From positions 186,001-250,000 of the forward strand of contig CALSNJ010000003.1 of NCBI GenBank assembly GCA_943787745.1: 64,000 bases of DNA. Reading direction: 5' to 3'. The position numbers and the translations under genes were made by a program. This document shows positions 48,220 to 60,485 of the stretch, one piece after another. The stretch comes from an uncultured Alphaproteobacteria bacterium (GTDB lineage Bacteria > Pseudomonadota > Alphaproteobacteria > UBA6615). Numbering within the stretch: the stretch's first letter is position 1; each line of letters begins with the position of its first letter. Below the pieces are notes generated by a model. That model worked only from the letters and a program-made list of their open reading frames with translations, searched no databases and was not told where the DNA came from.

Positions 48220-49968
48220 ATGGATGCGCGCCAATCAGACTATGCGACGGGCCATCCCGATCACGCGTCGGGAAAGGTGCGCAGTCGATCTGATTCTGAA
48301 GGCGGCCTGCCGGCATCTTCGCGCTGGCGTGCGCCCATCATCGCCGTTTTTTCATGGTTGTTGCGTCGTCGTCCTTCCTCTTCACTAACCCGACGTATCC
48401 TCGCCATAAATTTGCTGGTGCTTGCTGTGCCGGTCGGCGGGTTCTTTTTTCTCGACCAGTATCAGGAAAGCCTGATCGACGCGGAAATCGAAGCCCTGCG
48501 TGTGCAAGGGGAGGTTTTTGCTGGTGCACTAGGTGCCGGTGCCGTTGTGATTGCGCCGGGTGTTGGGCAACTGGTCGACCCTGTCCGTGCAAGCCTGATG
48601 CTGCGTCGTCTGACGGCCCCCACCCAGACCCGGGCGCGATTGTTCTCGGAGAATGGGGCCCTTGTGACCGACACCCAGGCCTTGATCGACCCGCGTGGGT
48701 TGGTGCGTGTGCGCGAACTGCCCCCAACAGACGGGTTTGCGCCCTGGACATGGTTGCGCGATCGTTTTGAGGCGGTTCTGAACTGGTCACCCAATCAGGG
48801 CGAATTGCCGATCTATCAGGAACGTGTGCCGCAGCGTGCCAGTGATTACCGGGAGGCCATCTCCGCACTTACCGATGAGGCGGGCGCGACCGTGCGCCGT
48901 CACGAATCCGGCGGCATGGTGATTTCTGTTTCCATTCCGGTGAAGCGTTACAAGCAAGTCGTTGGGGCGCTGATGCTGTCCCACGGCAGCGGTGAAATCG
49001 AGCGTGCCATGCGTGCCATTCGCATCGACATTCTGCAGGTCTTCGGTGTGGCTTTGGCCGTGACCATTCTGCTCTCGGTTTATCTGGCCGCCACGATTGC
49101 GCGTCCGCTCAAACGGCTTGCTGCGGCGGCTGAACGCGTGCGATCGGGATCGGGCCGATACACCTCTATTCCCGACTTTGCCGGACGACGGGATGAGATC
49201 GGTGATCTGGGGCGGGATTTACGCGCCATGACCGAGGCCCTGTGGCAGCGCATGGATGCGATTGAGCGGTTCGCCGCTGACGTTTCTCACGAGATCAAGA
49301 ACCCGCTGACATCCCTGCGCAGTGCTGTCGAAACTGTCGCCCGCGTTGAAGACCCCGCACAACAGAAAAAGTTGATGTCGATCATTCTCGATGATGTGGC
49401 GCGGCTCGACAGGCTGATCAGCGATATCTCTGATGCGTCCCGTCTGGATGCTGAGCTCAGTCGGGATCCGCCGTCTGAGTTGGATCTGCGCGATGTGCTG
49501 AGTGCGCTGGTGGATATTCATGCTGCGACATCGGAAGTGAATATCGTGATGGATGTACAGCCCGGCAGCGACCTGACGATCTGCGCCTTTGAGGACCGTT
49601 TGGGGCAGGTGTTCCGCAATATCATCACCAACGCCCAGTCCTTCAGCCCTGCCGATGGCCGTATTGTGGTCGCGGCATCGCGATCTAACCGGCGCGATGG
49701 GGATGTCGTCATGGTGACTGTTGATGATGAAGGTCCGGGTATTCCAGAGGCAAACCTCGAATCGATTTTCCGACGTTTCTACTCTGATCGTCCGACCACG
49801 GGTCCGGACGGAAAGGCCGAACGGCTTGGTACCCATTCGGGCCTCGGTCTTTCGATATCACGGCAGATTGTCGAGGCTGCAGGTGGCGAACTCTGGGCTG
49901 AAAACCGCCGCGATGCGGATGGACGGATCGAGGGTGCGCGATTCACGGTTCTGTTTCCCGCCGTGTAG
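48220..49968 (+). CDS. chvG: Sensor histidine kinase ChvG
   Basis: A 582-residue membrane kinase. After a cytoplasmic leader, helix 1 (I-L-A-I-N-L-L-V-L-A-V-P) and helix 2 (F-G-V-A-L-A-V-T-I-L-L-S-V) enclose a periplasmic domain of about 250 residues, followed by HAMP, a HisKA domain with F-A-A-D-V-S-H-E-I-K-N-P-L-T-S-L, and HATPase (V-D-D-E-G-P-G-I-P, G-L-G-L-S-I-S). The ATG at 48220 is chosen for the GGAGG eight bases upstream. In the usual layout hprK comes next; here the AEC gene follows on the other strand. Confidence 0.92.
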   Translation: MDARQSDYATGHPDHASGKVRSRSDSEGGLPASSRWRAPIIAVFSWLLRRRPSSSLTRRILAINLLVLAVPVGGFFFLDQYQESLIDAEIEALRVQGEVFAGALGAGAVVIAPGVGQLVDPVRASLMLRRLTAPTQTRARLFSENGALVTDTQALIDPRGLVRVRELPPTDGFAPWTWLRDRFEAVLNWSPNQGELPIYQERVPQRASDYREAISALTDEAGATVRRHESGGMVISVSIPVKRYKQVVGALMLSHGSGEIERAMRAIRIDILQVFGVALAVTILLSVYLAATIARPLKRLAAAAERVRSGSGRYTSIPDFAGRRDEIGDLGRDLRAMTEALWQRMDAIERFAADVSHEIKNPLTSLRSAVETVARVEDPAQQKKLMSIILDDVARLDRLISDISDASRLDAELSRDPPSELDLRDVLSALVDIHAATSEVNIVMDVQPGSDLTICAFEDRLGQVFRNIITNAQSFSPADGRIVVAASRSNRRDGDVVMVTVDDEGPGIPEANLESIFRRFYSDRPTTGPDGKAERLGTHSGLGLSISRQIVEAAGGELWAENRRDADGRIEGARFTVLFPAV

Positions 49969-49971
49969 TTC

Positions 49972-50847
49972 CTAAAGAACGATCAGCAGCAGAAGTGGAA
50001 GCGTTGCCAGCGAGAACAGGGTTGAAACCATGATGACGCCGGCCACCTGCTCGGCGCTGTTGTCGTACAGTTGCGCCCATAGATAAGAGAACAATGCCGC
50101 CGGTCCGGCCGATTGCAGGATTACGACACCACGTGTGACGGGATCCAGATCAAGAAACTCCGTGATCACAAGCGCGGCAACGAGCCCGAGACCGATCCGC
50201 AGAACCGAGACATAGATGCTGTTTTGCAGGCTCAGAACGTTCAGGCGCGCCAGTGCGACGCCCAGCGCCAGGAGGTTCAACGGAATAGCCGCGCCGCCGA
50301 TCAGCTTGGTTGTGTTCAGGGCCCAGGCGGGAGGTGTGGTGGCGGTGAACAGAAAGATCATCGAGAGGATGGCGGAGTAGATCAGTGGCTGGCGCAGAAC
50401 GAGTTTGTAGGAAAGTTTTCCGGCCGCGATAAGCTGACACACAGTGTACTGGACCAGCGCGTAGATCGTGTAACTGGCGATTGCGAGCGCCAATCCCGCC
50501 TCGCCAAAGGCAAACAGGCCCAGCGGCAGGCCCAAATTGCCGGAGTTTGGGACCAGGATGGGGGGCAGGAAGGCGCGCAGGGGAAGGCCTTTGAGCTTGA
50601 GCGCCAACGCTCCGATGGTGGCAACACTTAGCATCACAAGAATTGTGGCGATGGCCACCTGACCATAGGCGGTGAGCGAGATGTCCAGCCCGGTCATGGT
50701 CGCAAAAACCAGGCAGGGGGTCAGCACATAGACCGTGGACCGGGTGACGAACTCGGTTGGAAAATCCACACCACTGCGCTGCCAGCCATAGCCGATGGCC
50801 ACAGTGACAAATATCGGTATCAGAATAGCGGCAAATTCAGAGAACAC
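49972..50847 (-). CDS. AEC (auxin efflux carrier) family transporter
   Basis: A 291-residue carrier with ten helices in two five-helix halves. It begins F-A-A-I-L-I-P-I-F-V-T-V-A-I-G-Y and has N-S-G-N-L-G-L-P in the fourth helix, the crossover of the family, and the P-L-N-L-L-A-L-G second half. AEC members export or import organic acids and amino acids. It faces chvG (four bases between the stops) and is divergent from the Gfo/Idh gene at 51090, so it is at one edge of the inserted block. Confidence 0.88.
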   Translation of the reverse strand: MFSEFAAILIPIFVTVAIGYGWQRSGVDFPTEFVTRSTVYVLTPCLVFATMTGLDISLTAYGQVAIATILVMLSVATIGALALKLKGLPLRAFLPPILVPNSGNLGLPLGLFAFGEAGLALAIASYTIYALVQYTVCQLIAAGKLSYKLVLRQPLIYSAILSMIFLFTATTPPAWALNTTKLIGGAAIPLNLLALGVALARLNVLSLQNSIYVSVLRIGLGLVAALVITEFLDLDPVTRGVVILQSAGPAALFSYLWAQLYDNSAEQVAGVIMVSTLFSLATLPLLLLIVL

Positions 50848-51001
50848 GGATAGCGTCCGAGTGGCGGGGCGGGGAATGTATTCGACTTAGCACGCAGTCC
50901 GGGGAAGTGTCGCGGTCATCATCGGGCAGGACAGCCATATGAGGAGCAGTCTATGATCATCGCGACTTGCACATCGGCAGGCGCGAGAATAGTGTGCGTG
51001 C

Positions 51002-51015
51002 GTCTTATATAAGAC
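51002..51015. promoter_or_regulatory. 14-bp perfect palindrome, putative operator
   Basis: GTCTTATATAAGAC is fully self-complementary. It lies between the divergent AEC and Gfo/Idh genes, 74 bases upstream of the latter. HutC-subfamily GntR proteins often bind GT...TATA...AC palindromes, and one such regulator is encoded at 57405. The link is inference. Confidence 0.5.
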
Positions 51016-51089
51016 CGGTTTGCACAAGAATCGAAAACTAAAACGCGGAAATTCGCCGCGGTGAACCAGGAAAAGAGTGGGGATTTAAA

Positions 51090-52148
51090 ATGAAGCAGAT
51101 CAATGTTGGTGTAATCGGGCCGGGCTGGTGTGGCGGAATTCGTGCAAATGCGTGCGCAATTCACCCTCTGGTGGATGAGCTGCATCTGGCAGAAATCAAT
51201 GCCGAGCGGCTCGCGGTTGTGAAGGGCGAGACCAACCCGACGTCAACCACGGATGATTACCACCAGATTCTGCGCAATCCCGACGTCGATGCCATGTTCA
51301 TCTCGGCCACGCCGGAATCAACGCACTACCCGATGATCCGGGATTGCCTGGAAGCCGGGAAGCACGTGTTTGTGGAAAAGCCCGTATCTTCGACGATGGA
51401 AGAGGCCGATGAGGTCATCGCGCTGGCGGAGAAGAAGAACCTGAAGTTCACCGTTGGTTATTCGCAGCGCTTCAAGCCGAAATTCGCCTTTGTGCACAAA
51501 GCGATCAAGGACGGGACGATCGGTGAACCGGTGACCTGTCTGGTCAGCCGGAACGTGACCCGCGAGCTTGGTGACAAAATCACCGGGCGCACGAAGATGT
51601 CGCCGGCGGCCATGGAGGCGACCCACGATCTTGATTTCCTGCTCTGGTGTCTGCGGCCCCGAAAGCCAATCCGGGTCTATTCACAACAATCGGGCAAGCT
51701 GTTCGCACGTGACAGCGATACGCCCGACCATCAGTGGATCATGGTGACCATGGATGACGGCACCACTATCACGGTGGGCGCGGGTTGGATTTTGCCCCTG
51801 GGTTACAAAAACTATTCGCAGTGCTGGATTGAAGTCATCGGTACAGATGGTGCGCTCACCATCGACGATACCCATAAGGAAGTTCAGATCAACACGGTCA
51901 AAGACGGCATCCAGTATCCGATGTCGACCATGCCAGGCGAACCGGTCGATCATGTCTTTGCCGGCCCCATGAAGGCGGAGACAGATCATTTCATTGAAGC
52001 GGTCGCACTGGACCGTCCGGTCATGGTTCTGCCGTCGGAAGCGCGTGAAGTGATGGATGTCTATGCCGCGGCTGATCTTTCAGCCGAGCGCGGGGAGCCG
52101 GTCCTGCTGCCGCGCAATGACACATCTGGGTCCATGGCCGCCGAATAG
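51090..52148 (+). CDS. Gfo/Idh/MocA family oxidoreductase
   Basis: A 352-residue NAD(P)-dependent dehydrogenase. The Rossmann domain starts V-G-V-I-G-P-G-W-C-G-G; the family motif E-K-P appears in H-V-F-V-E-K-P-V (about residues 96-98). The C-terminal domain begins near residue 125 (Y-S-Q-R-F-K-P) and has H-D-L-D-F-L-L-W. Members oxidise inositols, sugars or their derivatives. It starts the plus-strand run 51090-54719. An eight-base inverted repeat follows at 52173-52199. Confidence 0.9.
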   Translation: MKQINVGVIGPGWCGGIRANACAIHPLVDELHLAEINAERLAVVKGETNPTSTTDDYHQILRNPDVDAMFISATPESTHYPMIRDCLEAGKHVFVEKPVSSTMEEADEVIALAEKKNLKFTVGYSQRFKPKFAFVHKAIKDGTIGEPVTCLVSRNVTRELGDKITGRTKMSPAAMEATHDLDFLLWCLRPRKPIRVYSQQSGKLFARDSDTPDHQWIMVTMDDGTTITVGAGWILPLGYKNYSQCWIEVIGTDGALTIDDTHKEVQINTVKDGIQYPMSTMPGEPVDHVFAGPMKAETDHFIEAVALDRPVMVLPSEAREVMDVYAAADLSAERGEPVLLPRNDTSGSMAAE

Positions 52149-52172
52149 GCAGTGCATGAGCCTGGCGCCGGG

Positions 52173-52199
52173 AGGCCGGTGTTTTTCTGCAACCGGCCT
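52173..52199 (+). terminator. Intercistronic hairpin
   Basis: AGGCCGGT and ACCGGCCT form a perfect eight-pair stem around an 11-base loop between the Gfo/Idh gene and the next gene. No U-run follows, so it may adjust expression of the downstream genes rather than end transcription. Confidence 0.4.
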
Positions 52200-52344
52200 T
52201 CCAACGCATGCCCGGTCTGCATGTGACCATACAGTTCCTGTGCTTGACCTTTTGGGAAGGGACACGAGCTGACCATGCGTCAGTGTGATCGGGGCATCGC
52301 CTCCTTATTGCCAGGGTGATGTTGTACCTCAGGGGGAGAAAGTA

Positions 52345-53088
52345 ATGGACAATGGAATTTGGGCAACCTGGTACGATCTGCCGGAAGATGGGCGTGACGA
52401 ATATCTGGACTGGTTGCACAGCGACTATTTGCCGTCGATCCAGTCCCGCCCGGGTGTCGCGTGGGCCGCACATTACCGCAGCGATGGTGGCGGGCCGGAT
52501 ATGCAGAAGGTGCGCGACGTCTTTCCCGAAACACAGAACACCAAGGACCTTGGCACCGGAACCCAGTTCCTGATGCTCGTGGGTGCGCCCGAGCCATGGA
52601 CATTGCTGGCCCCAAGCGTGATGGATGAACAGGCAGCTCTGACCGGTGAGGCCCGAAAGATGCTCGACCTGCGCGAAGGTGTCCGGCCCTGTATCTTCAC
52701 AACCTTCGCCCGCGTCGATGGCCCGGACATGCAAGAGCGCCCGGCCGGGACGACCCCGGGCCCGGCGATCCAGATGGGCAGTTTCCGTATTGGCGACTTG
52801 AAGAACGAGTTCGATGTCGGTGCCTGGTACGCCCAGTATCGTCTGCCCCATATGGCGCAAATGAAGGGCTGTATCGCTGCCCGGGTGATGGTTTCGGTTG
52901 CCGGGTGGGCGAAGTATTCGGTGATGTACGAGTTTACGTCTCTGCAGGCGCGGATGGATAGTTTCGAGCTGCCCCATGAAGCGCTGGCGCTGGACGAAGA
53001 GGAATGGACGGGCCGGGTCGTGCGTTACACCCAGCACACGCCGGGTTCACCGACGGTGGGTGAGCGCATCTGGCCACCGGTCGAATAG
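52345..53088 (+). CDS. Dimeric alpha/beta-barrel (EthD-like) protein of unknown function
   Basis: A 247-residue soluble protein with two similar halves. Each begins with a strand and a tyrosine/leucine-proline pattern: G-I-W-A-T-W-Y-D-L-P, D-Y-L-P-S in the first half, and W-Y-A-Q-Y-R-L-P-H-M in the second. This suits ferredoxin-like barrels of the EthD/ABM type. AGGGGGAG lies seven bases before the ATG at 52345. I cannot name its reaction; similar proteins act as auxiliary or degradative enzymes. Confidence 0.65.
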   Translation: MDNGIWATWYDLPEDGRDEYLDWLHSDYLPSIQSRPGVAWAAHYRSDGGGPDMQKVRDVFPETQNTKDLGTGTQFLMLVGAPEPWTLLAPSVMDEQAALTGEARKMLDLREGVRPCIFTTFARVDGPDMQERPAGTTPGPAIQMGSFRIGDLKNEFDVGAWYAQYRLPHMAQMKGCIAARVMVSVAGWAKYSVMYEFTSLQARMDSFELPHEALALDEEEWTGRVVRYTQHTPGSPTVGERIWPPVE

Positions 53089-53118
53089 AACTGCTTTAGA
53101 ACTGAAGGAGAATATCTG

Positions 53119-53784
53119 ATGGCTGTACTGCCCCTGATCACCGATGAAGATGCCACGCCGGAACAGAAGGCAATCTTTGACGGTTCAACAGCGCTTCTCG
53201 GCCGGGTGTCCAATTCGACTCGTCTGGCCGCCGCCTCACCGAAACTTATGCAGCCCTTGATGGGTTTCTTTATCGCCGCTTTGCGGCAGGAAATCACGGG
53301 TGAACTCGATGTCTGGACCAAGATGTTGGTTATCGTAAAAACATCAATGCTCAATGGCTGCGCTTATTGCATTGGCCATAACACAACGCTGGGGCGCGCG
53401 CTCGGGATGACGGATGAACAGACCCAAGCGCTGGAAGGGGATTACAAGAACTCTGATCTTTTCAGTGAGGCTGACAAGGCTGCGATCGCGTGGGCCGAAT
53501 GTCTGACGGAGCGTCACTATCACCGCGACAAGACCGCGATGGCTGAACTCAAGACTCACTTCAACGATGTGCAGGTGCTTGAGATCACCATGGTGTCGGG
53601 TTTCTTCAATTTCTGGAACCGCTTCAACGATGCGATGGAACTGGATATCGAGGATTCCGACAATATGAACCGCTTCAAGAAGTCGACGGTTCTCGATCCC
53701 GAAGATTACGTCGCCTATATGCGGTCCTGCTGGTGGAATGCCGAGGACGCGATGGACGATTATCAGGCCAAGGCCGCAGAATAG
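53119..53784 (+). CDS. Carboxymuconolactone decarboxylase / AhpD-like protein
   Basis: A 221-residue CMD-family protein with C81-x-x-C84-x-x-H87 in L-N-G-C-A-Y-C-I-G-H-N-T. It parallels the protein at 38287-38976 throughout: same length, E-K-A-A or D-K-A-A before I-x-W-A-E, and M-x-G-F-F-N or M-C-G-M-F-N, then a W-W/W-L C-terminus. It follows the EthD-like gene by 30 bp and precedes the DctP-like gene by 11 bp, so it belongs to one operon. It could be a thiol-dependent peroxidase or a lactone decarboxylase. Confidence 0.84.
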   Translation: MAVLPLITDEDATPEQKAIFDGSTALLGRVSNSTRLAAASPKLMQPLMGFFIAALRQEITGELDVWTKMLVIVKTSMLNGCAYCIGHNTTLGRALGMTDEQTQALEGDYKNSDLFSEADKAAIAWAECLTERHYHRDKTAMAELKTHFNDVQVLEITMVSGFFNFWNRFNDAMELDIEDSDNMNRFKKSTVLDPEDYVAYMRSCWWNAEDAMDDYQAKAAE

Positions 53785-53795
53785 GATTCAGACCC

Positions 53796-54719
53796 ATGGC
53801 AGAGTTCGATATCAAGTTCAGCGGCTATCAGGGCCCGCGTTCGATCCACAATCGCGCCGTGCAGGTGTTTGGTGATTCTCTTGCCAACAGTCTTGGTGAC
53901 CGGGTGGGATTCGAGCATGTGCTCAATGTGACAGAGGCGGGCCGCAAGGCTGCCGATCTCCTGACCATGGTGGCATCGGGTGAGACGACCCTGTGCTATT
54001 TTTCCTCCAGTTATCTCGCAGACAAAGTTCCCGAGATCGCATTGTTCGACCTTCCGTTCCTGATTCGGGATCGGGCGCAGGCCTATGCGATGTTGGACGG
54101 GCCACTTGGCCAGCTGGTTGTCGACAAGATGGCCGAGGCTGCCGATTTCAGGATTGTCGCCTGGTGGGACAATGGCTTTCGGCATTTTTCCAACGGTGTT
54201 CGCCCGATCCGGACCCCCGCGGATTGCGAAGGCCTGAAAATCCGGACCTTGTTCAGTGAGCTCCAGCAGCAAAGTTTTGCCGCGATGGGATTTGAGCCGG
54301 TGCCGCTCGACGTTGCCGAATTGCCCGGCGCGTGTGCGGACGGAACTGTTGATGCGCAGGAAAACCCGCTGACCAACACGTTCAATTTTGGGATCAACGA
54401 ACACCATCGCTGGATCACCATGAGCGGGCATTTCTTTGGCCCATGTGTGGTGTTGGCCCACAAGAAGACATGGGATGCCTGGCCCGAAGATGTCCGGAAT
54501 GCCGTTCAGGCCGCGCTGGCCGAGGCGACACCCGCGCAACGTGGATTTGCAGCTGCCGAAGATGAGGCGATCAAGTCCCGGATGGACCCGGGTCAGAATG
54601 AATTGATCGAACTCTCCGAAGACGAGCGCGCGGCCTTTGTTTCCGCGGTCGCCCCGGTGGTCGAGAGGACCATGAGCCAATTCAGGGATGAGTTGTTCGA
54701 GTATCTGCCGCGCGGCTAG
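53796..54719 (+). CDS. TRAP-type (DctP) binding protein without signal peptide
   Basis: A 307-residue DctP-fold protein. Motifs: E-I-A-L-F-D-L-P-F-L-I-R, the W-W-D-N-G-F-R-H-F-S-N stretch, L-K-I-R-T-L and D-A-Q-E-N-P-L-T-N-T. All known TRAP binding proteins are exported, but here the chain begins M-A-E-F-D-I-K-F-S-G-Y, the first strand of the mature fold; neither this nor an upstream in-frame start gives a leader. No DctQ or DctM gene is near. It may be a cytoplasmic ligand-binding protein, or the leader was lost. Confidence 0.85.
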   Translation: MAEFDIKFSGYQGPRSIHNRAVQVFGDSLANSLGDRVGFEHVLNVTEAGRKAADLLTMVASGETTLCYFSSSYLADKVPEIALFDLPFLIRDRAQAYAMLDGPLGQLVVDKMAEAADFRIVAWWDNGFRHFSNGVRPIRTPADCEGLKIRTLFSELQQQSFAAMGFEPVPLDVAELPGACADGTVDAQENPLTNTFNFGINEHHRWITMSGHFFGPCVVLAHKKTWDAWPEDVRNAVQAALAEATPAQRGFAAAEDEAIKSRMDPGQNELIELSEDERAAFVSAVAPVVERTMSQFRDELFEYLPRG

Positions 54720-55067
54720 ATGGTTTCACGTTGGAAGTCGTCAGATGCAGGCCTGGGATGCTCAAAACCTCCGTTTCGGGGGAAGCAGCGTGGTTTTGAG
54801 GGAATCGAATGGGCCGCAGGATTTCTTTTGATTTTTATCCTGTCTTCTTCGCTGTTGTGTTGTTTGCAGCGCCGGCGGCGTAGGCGAACTTTTCCAGAAG
54901 GGGCCAACCCGAATTTTGAGTATGAGTTCGGCGTGACTCCTTTGATGAACGCAGCTCTGCGCGGAAATTTGCGCTCGGCCGTTCTGCTGCGGGTGCTTCA
55001 GTCTAATTGGAAAGAAATGCCTGAACTTCATGCAGGGCACGTTTCCATGCGCTTTCCTGCTCCATGA
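54720..55067 (+). other. Possible small ORF with one ankyrin-like repeat
   Basis: Directly after the DctP-like stop an open frame of 115 codons contains a hydrophobic helix (about 33-50), a poly-Arg stretch, and residues 61-90 G-A-N-P-N-F-E-Y-E-F-G-V-T-P-L-M-N-A-A-L then R-G-N-L, a recognisable ankyrin unit (54900-54989). Nothing else of an ankyrin protein surrounds it, and the 3' end overlaps the gene on the other strand by 65 bp. Probably a remnant. Confidence 0.3.
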
Positions 55068-56184
55068 CCAGGTGGTTTGCACTGTCGAGCGAGACGAATC
55101 TGGCATGGGGTATGCGCGCGGCCATGAACCGGGCTTCGCTGACGGGTGAGACAAGCTCCCGTTCGGAATGAAGTACCAATGTTGGCATACCGATTTTCTT
55201 GAGCAGGTGAGAGACGTCGATGTTATCGATTGCTTCTCGCATGAGCACGGCATTGTCCGGTGAGGTGCCTGTTCGTTGTATCTCGGTCCACCAGCGGATT
55301 TGTTCCGAACTGGCTTCGGGCAGGTATAGCGCGGCAAACATGTCACGGAAGGGTGACGTTTCCTTGCCCCAACCCTGCCGCATCAAGGTTACAAATGCCT
55401 TGCTTTCCGCTCGGTTGTCTTCGTTTCCACGCATACGGCGACCGCGTGCGAACCCGCCCCAAAGTATCAGGTGGGTCACCCGATCGGGGTTTCGGGCAGC
55501 ATAGTCGATCGCAATCGCGGCCCCCTGGGATATGCCCAGCAACGCAAACTTCGCTTGATTGTTTGCTTCGATGAAGGTTTCGAGATCCGTTACAAAATCT
55601 TCAAATCCGATGTCGCCAACCTCCCAGTTGGCAAGTCCCACGCCGCGCGAATCATATCGGAGCAAGCTGCTGTCGCGCGAGAGCGTCTGAAACAGGGGCC
55701 CCCACATAGGGCTCGCCCAGTCATGCTCGAGATGGTTGAGCCAGTTTGCGACCTTGATCAGGGTGGGGCCCTGTCCGGAGATGGCGTATGGCAGGTCTAT
55801 GCCGTCGGGTGTCGAACAGTAACGTATTTGGGGGGACGAGGTCTCCGGTTCGATCTCACCGAGCGAAGACGGAGTTTGACCATCGATCTGTGCGATGAAT
55901 TGAAACCCGCGCCGTGAAACGGTTCGGATAACGGTTTGCCGGGAGCCGGAGTCACCGACGGCCTGACGGGCTGCGCTGATGCGGCTGCTGAGCGTGGCAT
56001 CGGAGACAATCCGGCCGTCCCATATGGCCTCGATGACCTCGTCTTTCGAAACAACACGATCATGGTTTTTGATCAGAAATTCCAGCAGTGCGAAGACCTG
56101 AGGTTCTGTCGGCACAACTTCGCTTCCGCGTGCCAGTTCATAGCGTTCCGGATCGAGCGTGTAGGGGCCGAATTCGTATGTCAC
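55003..56184 (-). CDS. Winged-helix / alpha/beta-hydrolase fusion protein
   Basis: A 393-residue fusion. Residues 1-100 are an OmpR/CadC-type DNA-binding winged helix (F-G-P-Y-T-L-D-P-E-R-Y-E-L, E-P-Q-V-F-A-L-L-E, V-S-D-A-T-L-S-S-R-I-S-A-A-R, T-V-S-R-R-G-F-Q-F). Residues 120-393 are an alpha/beta hydrolase with S219 in L-L-G-I-S-Q-G-A and H in D-S-A-N-H-L-V. The acid position reads L-H-S-E-R-E-L-V, with Glu for the usual Asp. No membrane helix separates the parts, so it could be a regulator whose hydrolase domain binds or cleaves a ligand. Confidence 0.87.
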   Translation of the reverse strand: MTYEFGPYTLDPERYELARGSEVVPTEPQVFALLEFLIKNHDRVVSKDEVIEAIWDGRIVSDATLSSRISAARQAVGDSGSRQTVIRTVSRRGFQFIAQIDGQTPSSLGEIEPETSSPQIRYCSTPDGIDLPYAISGQGPTLIKVANWLNHLEHDWASPMWGPLFQTLSRDSSLLRYDSRGVGLANWEVGDIGFEDFVTDLETFIEANNQAKFALLGISQGAAIAIDYAARNPDRVTHLILWGGFARGRRMRGNEDNRAESKAFVTLMRQGWGKETSPFRDMFAALYLPEASSEQIRWWTEIQRTGTSPDNAVLMREAIDNIDVSHLLKKIGMPTLVLHSERELVSPVSEARFMAARIPHARFVSLDSANHLVMEQESAWKRALHEVQAFLSN

Positions 56185-56305
56185 CGGTCAGATGCCCTCG
56201 AAAAATGAATATCCAGAAAATCTCAAGCGTAAATCAAGGAAACCTTCAAGCACCCCCCATTCTCGCAACCTAGTCTGCACCTGTCATTCAATGAGGAGAC
56301 AGATC

Positions 56306-56527
56306 ATGACGAATACCACAGACATTCGACAATTGCCCGATGGTTCAATCGACTACCTGTACTATCAGCGCTTGGGGCGCGGCTTGCATGGACAAGCGGT
56401 GCGAAGGGCGGGATGTAGGATCGCCGTCGTTCCAGGGAATATCCTCACGCGGGCAACGCGATGGCTGTTCCGGGCTTGGGCCCCGAGCGTCTACCCGTCC
56501 TCGCGGATGTCGTCGAAGACCTTGTAG
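56306..56527 (+). CDS. Small hypothetical protein, probably truncated
   Basis: The ATG at 56306 is preceded by a good GAGGAG. The first 34 residues (D-I-R-Q-L-P-D-G-S-I-D-Y-L-Y-Y-Q-R-L) resemble small alphaproteobacterial proteins with a helical start. The rest does not look natural and overlaps the end of the dehydrogenase gene on the other strand. The gene was probably cut off when the neighbouring block arrived. Function unknown. Confidence 0.4.
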   Translation: MTNTTDIRQLPDGSIDYLYYQRLGRGLHGQAVRRAGCRIAVVPGNILTRATRWLFRAWAPSVYPSSRMSSKTL

Positions 56528-57378
56528 AGCAGGCTGTAGTCATCTTCGGCCATGCCGCGGTCGATGGCCTTGTTGAGGAAGGTGCTGGTTTCCTTGGCGT
56601 AGCGTGCATCCATACCCATGCCTTCGGCCATGCGCACGACCATGCCCAGATCCTTGTTCAGATTGTAGACCCGCGAGCGGGCGTCCCAGGTTTCTGAAAG
56701 AATATGACGCGGGAAACGCGCTTCACTGGAATAGGAACGCGCGTTGGACGTGTTGAAGACGTCGATCATGTCCGACAGCTTCAACCCCGCGCGTTCGGCC
56801 ATCCGACCGGCTTCGCAGGTGGTCAGGAAGATGGAGTGTGTGACCATGTTGTGGATCAGCTTCATGGCATGCCCGGCCCCGACATCGCCGAGGAAATACA
56901 TATTGTCCGCAATCGCCTCGAGCTTTGAACGACAGGTTTCGAAGGTCGCCTGATCACCGCCAATCATCAGGGTCAGGGTGCCGGCATCCGCACCGGTCGC
57001 ACCACCACTCATGGCGGCGTCGAGATACTGGATGCCCGCTTCAGCAGCGCGTGCGGCAATCCGTTTGGTGTCCTCGGGAAAAGATGTGGTCAGGTCGTAG
57101 ATCACAGTTCCCGGCGCGGCCTGAGCCAGAACGCCACCCTCACCTTCGAACGAAGCTTCGATCTCAGGTGTGGCGGGGACCACGTAAACCATCATCGCAC
57201 CGGCGGCAGCCATCTCACCGGGAGGGGCCACCATGATGTTGTCTTGCGCGGCAAGATTGTTGCGTGCGCCCTCGCTGATGTCCCAGACCGCTGTCAGATG
57301 GCCAGCCTTGGCGAAATTGGTCGCGATGCCCCGGCCCATATTGCCAAGCCCGATGACCCCGATTGTCGGTTTCGTCAT
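56491..57378 (-). CDS. Beta-hydroxyacid dehydrogenase (3-hydroxyisobutyrate dehydrogenase family)
   Basis: A 295-residue enzyme. The NAD-binding loop is I-G-V-I-G-L-G-N-M-G-R-G-I. The substrate-binding motif D-A-A-M-S-G-G-A-T-G-A follows at about 117-127 and the catalytic lysine lies in G-H-A-M-K-L-I-H-N. Family members oxidise 3-hydroxyisobutyrate, tartronate semialdehyde and related acids. It lies 26 bp downstream of the GntR gene on the same strand. With the Gfo/Idh proteins it points to a polyol or sugar-acid pathway. Confidence 0.92.
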   Translation of the reverse strand: MTKPTIGVIGLGNMGRGIATNFAKAGHLTAVWDISEGARNNLAAQDNIMVAPPGEMAAAGAMMVYVVPATPEIEASFEGEGGVLAQAAPGTVIYDLTTSFPEDTKRIAARAAEAGIQYLDAAMSGGATGADAGTLTLMIGGDQATFETCRSKLEAIADNMYFLGDVGAGHAMKLIHNMVTHSIFLTTCEAGRMAERAGLKLSDMIDVFNTSNARSYSSEARFPRHILSETWDARSRVYNLNKDLGMVVRMAEGMGMDARYAKETSTFLNKAIDRGMAEDDYSLLYKVFDDIREDG

Positions 57379-57404
57379 GGTTCTTCTCCCCTTGTGCCGA
57401 CGGG

Positions 57405-58172
57405 TTAACCTCGTTCGGCGACGTAAGTGTAGTCAGATGTATTGCAGCGGCTGACCCGCCATTCGACAGGGCGACCGTCAATCGTGATCGCGACCCGGTC
57501 GATTTCGAGCAGAGGTGCGTCGGGCATGATGCCTAGCAGCTGCGCCTCCAGTGCTTCTGCCGGAACGGCAGATACGGATTCCGATGCCTTGGCGACGGTG
57601 ATGCCGTATTCGCCCTGATAAAACCTGTAGAGGTTTTCGGGCAGTTTCAGATCGCCCCCCAGCCCCGGGAACAAATCGCGCGGCAGGGTCAATCGTTCGA
57701 CAATCACCGGGCGTTCGCGCAATTCGCGTACCCGATGCATGGCAACCACATATGCACCTTCGCCAAGTTCGAGCCTGTCTCTTTCGGTCTCGGTGGCCGG
57801 GCGTTGCTCGCAGGCCAATGTTCGGCTGGACGGCATGGTCTGATCGCCGTCCCGGCTTTTCAGGTTGAAGTACAGGAACAGCGCTCGTCGCTCGGTGTAT
57901 TCGGACACAAAGGTCCCGCGGCCCTGTCGGCGTTCGAGCAAATTCTCGGCGACCATGTCGTTGAGCGCCTTGCGCACAGTGCCCTGGCTGACGGAGAGCT
58001 CCTCGGCGAGCTCAAACTCGCTTGGCAGGGCTTCACCGGGCTTCCAGTAATTGTCGATCAGCCGCTTGCGGATGATCTCCTCGACCTGCGCATAAAGCGG
58101 TTTTCCCGGCGCGCGTTTGAGCTGCGCTGGTTTTGACGATTTACGTTTTGCGGTTTTGGGTTTTGACGCCAT
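57405..58172 (-). CDS. GntR-family transcriptional regulator (HutC/UTRA type)
   Basis: A 255-residue repressor. The winged-helix domain (about 25-95) has L-Y-A-Q-V-E-E-I-I, P-S-E-F-E-L-A-E-E-L-S-V-S-Q-G-T-V-R-K-A-L and R-R-Q-G-R-G-T-F-V. The UTRA ligand domain (about 100-255) has E-R-L-T-L-P-R-D-L-F-P and V-E-W-R-V-S-R-C. The ATG at 58172 is preferred; 58184 is an alternative. Its ligand is probably a metabolite of the block. The palindrome at 51002 is a candidate operator. Confidence 0.9.
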   Translation of the reverse strand: MASKPKTAKRKSSKPAQLKRAPGKPLYAQVEEIIRKRLIDNYWKPGEALPSEFELAEELSVSQGTVRKALNDMVAENLLERRQGRGTFVSEYTERRALFLYFNLKSRDGDQTMPSSRTLACEQRPATETERDRLELGEGAYVVAMHRVRELRERPVIVERLTLPRDLFPGLGGDLKLPENLYRFYQGEYGITVAKASESVSAVPAEALEAQLLGIMPDAPLLEIDRVAITIDGRPVEWRVSRCNTSDYTYVAERG

Positions 58173-58273
58173 GAACCGACCCATCTCCCTGACAGCGCCG
58201 CGCCGGTCGGCGCGGTGACCAAGAGATTTAATACGTGCTCGGGCGCAAAGGCGTCAATGCAGCCGACCGCCGG

Positions 58274-58669
58274 TTAGATCAGCTCGCGGCTGCCCGAGGC
58301 AAAGCCAACCTTCACGGTCATGGTCCCTTCGTTCACAATCCAGGGACGCACCATATATTTGCGGGCACCTGCTGCATGCATCGGATCTGCTGCCGCAATG
58401 GCTTTGGCGTCTTCAAGAGATTCCGCCCGGATGACGACCATGCCGTCGCCAGACCACGTTTCGCCGTTCATATCGGCCATGGGGCCGGCGGCGAACATAA
58501 CGCCGGTGTCTTCAAGCATACGCTGATAGGCGAGGTGTTCCTTGATGTTGGCCTGAATGGGCTCCATGCCGTTTTCGGGCATTGTGAAGACCACAAACAA
58601 CTGTTTTCCCAGCAAGCTGTTGGTGCGCGCTCGCTCGAGCATGTGTTCCCAGGGAAATGTGTCAGACAT
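58274..58669 (-). CDS. YciI-like protein
   Basis: A 131-residue small alpha/beta protein related to the YCII family: F-V-V-F-T-M-P, H-L-A-Y-Q-R-M-L-E-D-T-G, F-A-A-G-P-M, and D-A-K-A-I-A-A-A-D-P-M-H-A-A-G with the conserved His-Asp pair. Family members act as lyases or dehydrochlorinases or have unknown roles. It lies between the GntR gene and the second Gfo/Idh gene on the same strand. Confidence 0.82.
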   Translation of the reverse strand: MSDTFPWEHMLERARTNSLLGKQLFVVFTMPENGMEPIQANIKEHLAYQRMLEDTGVMFAAGPMADMNGETWSGDGMVVIRAESLEDAKAIAAADPMHAAGARKYMVRPWIVNEGTMTVKVGFASGSRELI

Positions 58670-58698
58670 ATCCGGTCCTTTGCGGTGTTTTGGTCGGT

Positions 58699-59820
58699 CT
58701 ATTCGTAGAAGACGTCGAGATTGAGCGGCAAGTCCAGGCGTTCATTTCGCTTGGACGCCAGATCCATTGCCATCGTCATGATCAGATTGCGGTGCCCGTC
58801 TTGCGCCGTCGCGTGGGGTGTTTCCATGCCGGTGTAGAGGCGCTGGTACCAGGATACGGTTTCTTCGCGCATCGGTCCCCAGAGCTGGCCGTTATACATA
58901 TCGCCGGGCGGGTAGCTGGTCATGAAGTCCACATGGCGCTGATACTCGGGTGTGAATCCATCGGGTGCATATCCGGCGCCCTGGGGAATTTCGCTGGCGA
59001 TGACCAGATCGCGATGGGTGTCCTCGATATCGATCACTCCCTTGTCGCCGATGATCCCGATTTCGAGTCCGTAGACCGCACCTGGCCAGACGACGGGGGC
59101 TGCCCAGGATATGTTCATGGAGAACATCGTGCCGTCATCCATGGTGAAGATGCCGAAGGTTGAGTCTTTCGTGCCGTATTGCGAAAGCGCTTTGTCATTG
59201 GACTGTGCGTAGACCGAAACAGGGGTCTTTCCTTCCATCAGCCACATGCACATATCGAGCGCATGGGTGCCTGACACGACCATGGGCGTCAGGTTTTGAC
59301 GCTGATTGGTGCGCTGGACCGTGGCGATGGGCACCATACGGTTCATCAGGGCCCGGGTGATCACGCCGGTCACTTCGCCGATTTGGCCGGTTTGCAGGCG
59401 TTCTTTCACGGTCAGGAAGCGCCGGCGAAAACGCTGGGTATAGCCAATCACAGCGTCAACATTGTTGGTCTCGATGGCATCCAGAACACGACGGGATTCG
59501 CGGGCGTCCGTGGCCAGGGGTTTCTCAATGAAAAGCGCATGACCGGCATCGGCCGCCGCGATCGTCGGGGCCATGTGATGGTTTTCGTCGGTGGCGATGA
59601 TCACCGCATCGACTTCCGGCCGGGCAATCAGATCTTCAAAGTTTGAAGTCTTGAAATCGGCATCCACGTCGTCGGCCAATCGGTCGAGCAGGTCCTCTTT
59701 GATGTCGCAAAGGCCGATCCAGCCAATCCCGGGATAGTCTCGCGCGAACTCGGCACGGATACGTCCAATGGTGCCGCAGCCAATGACGGCCAGGCCGAGG
59801 GGTTTCTTGTTTTCTCTCAT
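58699..59820 (-). CDS. Gfo/Idh/MocA family oxidoreductase
   Basis: A 373-residue dehydrogenase. V-I-G-C-G-T-I-G-R-I-R is the dinucleotide loop and L-F-I-E-K-P-L (about 96-102) the E-K-P motif, followed by G-Y-T-Q-R-F-R-R and G-T-H-A-L-D-M-C-M-W. It resembles inositol 2-dehydrogenases. It is first in the minus-strand run dehydrogenase-YciI-GntR-hydroxyacid dehydrogenase. It is only distantly similar to the Gfo/Idh protein at 51090. Confidence 0.9.
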   Translation of the reverse strand: MRENKKPLGLAVIGCGTIGRIRAEFARDYPGIGWIGLCDIKEDLLDRLADDVDADFKTSNFEDLIARPEVDAVIIATDENHHMAPTIAAADAGHALFIEKPLATDARESRRVLDAIETNNVDAVIGYTQRFRRRFLTVKERLQTGQIGEVTGVITRALMNRMVPIATVQRTNQRQNLTPMVVSGTHALDMCMWLMEGKTPVSVYAQSNDKALSQYGTKDSTFGIFTMDDGTMFSMNISWAAPVVWPGAVYGLEIGIIGDKGVIDIEDTHRDLVIASEIPQGAGYAPDGFTPEYQRHVDFMTSYPPGDMYNGQLWGPMREETVSWYQRLYTGMETPHATAQDGHRNLIMTMAMDLASKRNERLDLPLNLDVFYE

Positions 59821-60035: not shown

Positions 60036-60485
60036 ATGATTCGCGTGCACGGGACGAGCGTCGCGTTTTTACTGGGGGACCAATGGTTCGCGGTTCTGCT
60101 GCGTGGCTCCTCGGGCTCGGGTAAGTCGGATCTTGCCTTGCGATTGATTGAATCAGGCGCGCGCCTTGTCGCCGATGACCAGACCGAATTGCAGCTTCAG
60201 GACGGCGGCATTATGGCGTCTGTGCCGGAGCGACTGGCGGGTCGTATCGAGGTCCGTGGTGTCGGAATTGTGGAAATCGAACATCTGGCATCGGCCCGGC
60301 TGGTTTTGGTTTGCGACTTGTGCGCGTCGGAAGATGTTCCGCGCATGCCTGAGGAAGAATGTGTCCAACTTCTCGACCATAAGGTCGGCTTGCTGCGTGT
60401 TGCACCCTTTGAATTTTCAGCGCCGATCAAGGTTCGCCTTGGCGTTGAGGCAGCGCGGCGCGGTATACTGGGGCGAAACTTCTAA
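60036..60485 (+). CDS. hprK: HPr kinase/phosphorylase HprK, short alphaproteobacterial form
   Basis: A 149-residue protein consisting only of the catalytic domain, as usual in alphaproteobacteria, where HprK of Gram-positives is about 310 residues. The P-loop is R-G-S-S-G-S-G-K-S (24-31 for the core), followed by A-D-D-Q-T-E and E-V-R-G-V-G-I-V. It phosphorylates a serine of HPr in response to metabolites. An AAGGA lies 11 bases before the ATG; the frame is open to 59958. It normally follows chvG, from which it is separated by 10 kb here. Confidence 0.93.
   Translation: MIRVHGTSVAFLLGDQWFAVLLRGSSGSGKSDLALRLIESGARLVADDQTELQLQDGGIMASVPERLAGRIEVRGVGIVEIEHLASARLVLVCDLCASEDVPRMPEEECVQLLDHKVGLLRVAPFEFSAPIKVRLGVEAARRGILGRNF

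Follow-up and report, generated by a model that had tools for sequence, protein, structure and literature searches.

A catabolic gene block with a leaderless DctP-like protein between chvG and hprK of an uncultured alphaproteobacterium

The genes chvI-chvG-hprK-ptsM(manX)-ptsO(ptsH)-sahH(ahcY) are known from Brucella as part of the bvrRS operon (PMC2937029, PMC9491525). This is the published gene order of alphaproteobacteria; co-transcription of neighbor pairs is known from Brucella melitensis (PMC2937029), and in B. abortus the cluster is located within a 16-gene operon (PMC9491525). The stretch analyzed here, called the window, consists of 64,000 nucleotides of an uncultured alphaproteobacterium (contig CALSNJ010000003.1, positions 186,001 to 250,000) and carries the identical genes in the identical order on both sides of an insertion. 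In contrast to the described cluster, however, approximately 10 kb of catabolic genes are inserted between the end of chvG at 49968 and the start of hprK at 60036, and parts of the cluster were lost in two descendant lineages. The last gene of this block, Gfo2, is divergent from hprK and, hence, hprK must have its own promoter. The block is probably best explained as a catabolic module that was acquired once and vertically inherited, situated between a pair of chvG and an auxin efflux carrier family (AEC) gene on one side and hprK on the other. The module is conserved and of considerable age, probably has an operator of its own, and is no recent patchwork. Its most unusual component is a clade of DctP-like proteins that lack a signal peptide, referred to as leaderless.

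The other described systems resemble parts of the block. The DctP-family binding proteins of tripartite ATP-independent periplasmic (TRAP) transporters (PF03480; PDB 4nq8 and 4ovs, SiaP) share with the DctP-like protein the fold and a carboxylate-binding Arg, whereas the leaderless clade has neither signal peptide nor adjoining permease and features invariant residues of its own. The two dehydrogenases Gfo1 and Gfo2 match the IolG/DgpA-type sugar and cyclitol dehydrogenases of the Gfo/Idh/MocA family in family and domain order but score far below the curated cut-offs, and the block lacks the inositol and C-glycoside partner genes. GntR/HutC regulators such as NagR (PMC4333415) likewise combine a GntR and a UTRA domain with a palindrome upstream of a catabolic operon. 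In organic acid clusters linked to TctABC, and likewise in relatives of the block, this tripartite tricarboxylate transporter is encoded beside dehydrogenases; the block of the window, in contrast, has no TctABC.

Age and origin of the chvG–hprK split

The chvG–hprK region was compared in 20 relatives of the same family, whose genera are labeled g1, g2, g5, g7, and g9 (the window belongs to g1; G denotes genomes and L loci), and in outgroups of the class. In six outgroups (L029, L030, L033-L036) chvG is directly followed by hprK; L032 has a gap of 0.9 kb between the two, and in L037 chvG is followed by rapZ, with hprK not detected. Because chvG and hprK are adjacent in the outgroups, the split of the window is the derived state. 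Together with the co-transcription in Brucella, this bears out an earlier interpretation of the window made from its letters alone—the sequence-only reading—according to which the cluster is contiguous in other alphaproteobacteria and split here.

Within the family, block genes occupy the place between chvG and hprK in 17 genomes including that of the window (g1, g2, g5, and g7). In G013 (g9) and G002 (g1) the block is found on contigs running into genes of the phosphotransferase system (PTS) or rapZ. The block-less genomes G007, G008, and G012 have the order chvG-AEC-hprK, and G010 has merely ~0.8 kb between chvG and hprK. In the chvG tree, the block genomes of that tree and G013 form one clade of 18 rows at a support of 99/98 (starred); the members of the family that have no block fall outside it. 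Because the carriers are united in one supported clade, the tree implies a probable single gain in the ancestor of this clade. As judged by this distribution, the block is old and vertically inherited: ancestral inside the clade and derived relative to the class. The insertion proposed in the sequence-only reading thus holds against the class, but among the carriers of the same genus and family the block is the ancestral state.

The block consists of two converging operons: a rightward one with Gfo1-EthD-CMD-DctPlike (51090-54719) and a leftward one with Gfo2-YciI-GntR-HIBADH (59820-56491). The convergent junction at 54720-56490 lies in mid-block and contains a winged-helix/hydrolase fusion and small open reading frames (ORFs). 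All genes that had been named between chvG and hprK are present in their places:

49972..50847, minus strand: AEC transporter (PF03547)
51002..51015, no strand: palindrome GTCTTATATAAGAC, proposed GntR operator (conservation and genome match count)
51090..52148, plus strand: Gfo1, Gfo/Idh/MocA-family dehydrogenase, core (PF01408 and PF02894; IolG-like below cut-off)
52345..53088, plus strand: EthD-like protein with two ferredoxin-like repeats, near-constant (AlphaFold2 model, Foldseek)
53119..53784, plus strand: CMD/AhpD-like protein, genus-specific accessory (PF02627)
53796..54719, plus strand: leaderless DctP-like protein, core (PF03480, 199 bits)
54720..55067, plus strand: ORF with sub-threshold ankyrin match, outside the module (Ank_5, E 0.0087, under the Pfam cut-off)
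55003..56184, minus strand: fusion of a Trans_reg_C winged helix and an alpha/beta-hydrolase, junction passenger (PF00486 and PF00561)
56306..56527, plus strand: small ORF transcribed away from the hydrolase gene (70-aa homologue at the corresponding position in L068)
56491..57378, minus strand: HIBADH/L-threonate-dehydrogenase-like oxidoreductase, core (PF03446 and PF14833)
57405..58184, minus strand: GntR-UTRA regulator, HutC-type (PF00392 and PF07702)
58274..58669, minus strand: YciI-like protein (NCBIfam YciI models, best E 1e-8, below cut-off)
58699..59820, minus strand: Gfo2, Gfo/Idh/MocA-family dehydrogenase, core, divergent from hprK (family-model match)
60036..60485, plus strand: hprK, right flank (gone in g2 and g7 relatives)

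The GC content of the block is 0.578 and matches the 0.588 ± 0.018 of equal-sized windows of the surroundings, so that there is no compositional sign of a recent arrival. A recent insertion with scars was rejected on account of the presence of the block in genomes of the same genus and family, the chvG tree, the variable junction, and the GC content. The two fragments that had been taken for insertion traces at the block edges are both located at the mid-block junction: the ORF at 56306 is a small gene with a homologue in L068, and the ankyrin-like piece is a sub-threshold match and no insertion mark. The ankyrin-like ORF was not seen in L068.

Parts of the PTS branch were lost after the insertion, in genomes that are 92-100% complete. 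The g7 genomes (G011 = L055, G017 = L074) have lost hprK and manX and kept rapZ; the g2 genomes (G006, G014, G018; L056, L058, L059) have lost hprK, rapZ, and manX. The examined sites of both genera yielded no ptsH. Because G013, the sister to g7, retains all four PTS-branch genes, the losses in g7 and g2 apparently occurred independently of each other; G007, G008, and G012, which have no block, keep the PTS-branch genes as well. These losses—two events only—are suggestive of the branch having become dispensable by the separation of hprK from chvIG.

The leaderless DctP-like protein

The DctP-like gene starts with the ATG at 53796, 11 bp past the CMD stop. No signal peptide was found upstream in frame, be it in the window, in its relatives, or in those loci of Alpha- and Betaproteobacteria, Rokubacteria, and Nitrospinota that can be read, as judged by a simple hydrophobicity reading and no dedicated predictor. 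In a quick tree with long branches, the leaderless proteins form one clade against the classical DctP proteins with a support of 99 (starred). Three Tat-signal proteins and one misoriented row, falsely labeled leaderless by the simple hydrophobicity threshold, lie outside this clade. The AlphaFold2 model of the protein (pLDDT 94.2) features the fold of TRAP binding proteins, with a TM score of about 0.9 to solved representatives. R151 is invariant in 72 leaderless sequences and aligns with the Arg of classical DctP proteins, the residue to which the carboxylate of the ligand is bound in SiaP (PMC4646407). N191 is invariant too. In addition, Y12, Y69, N127, H205, and Q249 are near-invariant in the leaderless clade and not in classical members. 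The genome of the window encodes a second leaderless DctP-like protein (C2:1351392; L064:8387-9304), which belongs to another branch of the clade and shares 38% identity.

In a minimal reading, the leaderless DctP would be a cytoplasmic carboxylate-binding protein. Beyond this, a former binding protein that has become an enzyme is most likely and is preferred over a carrier or sensor, because binding-protein folds became enzymes elsewhere—as in the case of MqnA and THI5. A role as cytoplasmic ligand sensor or metabolite carrier is quite possible, if the less probable of the two: the pocket Arg and Asn are kept, and the gene often shares its operon with transporter and regulator genes, but the protein carries no partner domain and no DNA-binding part, and the residues specific to the clade suggest a changed function, yet may serve binding alone. 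Literature searches for a cytoplasmic DctP yielded nothing relevant.

Composition, recurrence, and regulation of the block

Gfo1, DctP-like, HIBADH-family, and Gfo2 genes are found in every block whose contig spans the place and constitute the constant core. The EthD-like gene is part of all such blocks but that of G022, and it was not seen in G002. The remaining genes are more restricted: GntR occurs in the blocks of g1, g5, g7, and g9 and in none of g2, YciI in those of g1 and g5, and CMD, among the chvG–hprK blocks, only in g1, with a distant CMD recurring in clusters elsewhere. Lineage-specific additions are two metallo-beta-lactamase-fold proteins, TctABC, a VOC protein, an acyl-CoA-dehydrogenase-like protein, and an amidohydrolase. 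In L052 (G001) the AEC, CMD, DctP-like, and HIBADH genes are broken up between reading frames, apparently by an assembly error in this metagenome-assembled genome (MAG). At an unrelated locus of G012 (C25:332580, L186), a Gfo2 of 79% identity lies beside a YciI-like gene. The arrangement of Gfo2 and YciI suggests that the two may act as a functional pair.

The AEC of the window groups with the AECs between chvG and hprK of the block-less G007, G008, and G012, apart from the AECs of clusters elsewhere. Because of this grouping with AECs in the same place, the AEC is judged to predate the block and to be no part of the module; a function as pathway transporter is not supported on account of this age, and recruitment is possible. 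The convergent junction is almost empty in g5 genomes (e.g., G009 and G021), and it carries a catalase gene in G004. In G001 the catalase gene is accompanied by a remnant of the hydrolase, whereas the window and L068 have the hydrolase fusion and the small divergent ORF at this place. The winged helix of this fusion is CadC-like. By this comparison, the junction is variable, and the winged-helix/hydrolase gene and the small ORFs are its passengers. The sequence-only reading had counted both the AEC and the winged-helix/hydrolase gene among the pathway genes, an assignment that does not survive, the former being older and the latter a variable passenger.

The varying contents of the Gfo1/EthD and DctP-like/HIBADH gaps—metallo-beta-lactamase pair, TctABC, catalase, hydrolase fusion—would fit a chance pile-up of independent insertions at a hot spot that serves no single pathway. 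This is unlikely, however: the four core genes are invariable, the same gene set stands together in unrelated loci and genomes, and a common palindrome is conserved.

Scanning 84,980 species genomes with a profile of the DctP-like protein yielded 410 relatives, of which the loci of the best 80 were read; neighbor counts are based on the 46 of these loci that extend for 5 kb or more to each side. Near the leaderless DctP, Gfo2 occurs in 25 of the 46, TctA in 24, and Gfo1 and CMD in 19 each. The arrangement CMD-TctCBA-Gfo2-DctPlike, complete or in part, occurs in Roseibium, Nitratireductor, Hoeflea, Phaeobacter, and others, where a second TctBAC and Gfo1 frequently lie close by, and Gfo2 is ~72% identical in the clusters of Rhodobacterales and Rhizobiales. 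Carriers that can be cultured are Roseibium album CECT 5095 and Nitratireductor sp. XY-223. The search for the gene set elsewhere, as proposed from the sequence, thus recovers a Gfo/DctP/TctABC combination that recurs, in differing gene orders, in Roseibium, Nitratireductor, and Phaeobacter. Among 144 evenly drawn Alphaproteobacteria, the strict score was reached only by the family of the window and, hence, the DctP-like protein is not common. Plasmid records contain one close relative of Gfo2 only (Parasedimentitalea), which is accompanied by TctC and TctA-type genes, with no DctP-like gene annotated beside it. In L083, L084, L099, and L119, from MAGs labeled Rhodospirillaceae/Rhodospirillales, the leaderless DctP is surrounded by HIBADH-family dehydrogenases and a polysaccharide-deacetylase-like protein. 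Neither the gene set of the block nor the combination of TctABC with a leaderless DctP and two Gfo/Idh dehydrogenases is described in the literature searched, in agreement with the earlier statement that no described pathway with this gene combination was known.

A TRAP large permease is encoded within 10 kb in eight of the 46 loci, none adjacent and none closer than ~3 kb. That the leaderless DctP is an ordinary TRAP binding protein—its start misread or its signal lost in a decaying gene—is very unlikely; the match to the Pfam DctP model is good and the ligand Arg is kept, but no permease adjoins it, the upstream frames of readable loci hold no convincing signal peptide, and the leaderless clade is monophyletic and well conserved.

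The palindrome GTCTTATATAAGAC, or a variant with zero to two mismatches, is retained in each of the 15 readable genomes of g1, g5, g7, and g9, at a distance of ~60-115 bp upstream of the Gfo1 start, whereas much of the other intergenic sequence of these genomes has diverged. It is absent in three of three g2 genomes, whose blocks have no GntR gene. The genome of the window (3.27 Mb) features one exact match, and its matches with two mismatches are no more common than those of a reversed control. Among 40 genomes, the exact 14-mer has 11 matches in ten genomes (reversed control: 0), eight of these matches being located at the Gfo1 promoter of the block. The match in G012, which is block-less at chvG, lies just upstream of TctB in a second module with Gfo1, GntR, HIBADH, DctP-like, EthD, and TctABC; that in G022 lies on a short contig and marks a second module with Gfo1, TctABC, and HIBADH. 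This pattern supports a single regulon under a single regulator. The regulator gene carries GntR and UTRA domains, and its co-occurrence with the palindrome points to GntR as the probable binder of a putative operator. The sequence-only reading had proposed one pathway with a regulator of its own; that the block behaves as one module, probably regulated in this way, is strengthened by the retention of the palindrome in GntR-bearing genera, its single genomic match, and the second modules. Promoter and terminator scans remained at chance level. Control by ChvI or another regulator, with the block under ChvI through its location beside chvIG, is highly improbable, because the 14-mer marks the G012 and G022 modules away from chvG and is missing where GntR is missing.

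Proposed pathway and significance

Gfo1 and Gfo2 reach 132.6 and 134.2 bits against the NCBIfam IolG equivalog and thus fall short of its cut-off of 355; the closest solved relatives of Gfo2 are DgpA1 and DgpA. The HIBADH-family gene resembles L-threonate and 2-hydroxymethylglutarate dehydrogenases but stays below the equivalogs of 3-hydroxyisobutyrate dehydrogenase (153.4 bits, cut-off 291.6) and L-threonate dehydrogenase (174.5 bits, cut-off 350). The EthD-like protein has no Pfam match at E 0.01; its AlphaFold2 model, of moderate confidence (pLDDT 61.7), features a double ferredoxin-like barrel, with Foldseek matches to alpha/beta-barrel proteins (best E 1.6e-5). The substrate class is most likely a polyhydroxylated or cyclic carboxylate, a carboxylate being indicated by TctABC in relatives and by the DctP pocket; the polyol or sugar acid of the sequence-only reading would be a candidate only. 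An inositol or C-glycoside pathway was rejected because of the model scores under the cut-offs and the missing partner genes. An aromatic pathway of the 4,5-protocatechuate/phthalate type, with Gfo/Idh dehydrogenases such as LigC, was taken into account owing to the VOC, acyl-CoA-dehydrogenase-like, and amidohydrolase genes of the g7 and g2 blocks but was not adopted, as these genes are missing from the block of the window.

In the proposed mechanism, the module was acquired once in the ancestor of the clade, between pre-existing chvG-AEC and hprK. GntR would repress the Gfo1 operon via the palindrome until a compound of the pathway occupies the UTRA domain. The oxidation of the carboxylate substrate, which many relatives may take up through the linked TctABC, would fall to Gfo1, Gfo2, and the HIBADH-family enzyme, and the EthD-like barrel would handle a reactive intermediate. 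The DctP-like protein would act on a carboxylate intermediate in the cytoplasm, most likely as an enzyme and less so as a carrier or sensor; the AEC and the hydrolase fusion would stand outside the pathway.

Several points weigh against this proposal. The block of the window carries neither TctABC nor the metallo-beta-lactamase genes, and the chemistry may vary, as accessory enzymes differ among genera. One exact match of the palindrome (G009:C2) has no module nearby. The site, GTCT-N6-AGAC, is longer than NagR-type and classical HutC-family sites, and a different regulator could use it instead of GntR.

Taken jointly, it can be put forward tentatively, and as somewhat less than probable, that leaderless DctPs are cytoplasmic enzymes or intracellular carriers derived from periplasmic TRAP binding proteins, which serve a new carboxylate pathway with two Gfo/Idh dehydrogenases, and that the insertion uncoupled ChvIG from HprK-EIIA-HPr, which was lost at least twice thereafter. 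The block represents a catabolic module that recurs in Alphaproteobacteria, most of them marine; the literature searched describes no pathway for it, and the predicted operator makes its inducer testable. Annotation pipelines would call the leaderless DctPs transporters and thereby give rise to misleading inferences of substrate uptake. Finally, the broken linkage between ChvGI and the PTS, together with the later losses in the PTS branch, provides a natural case on whether this linkage is functionally needed.

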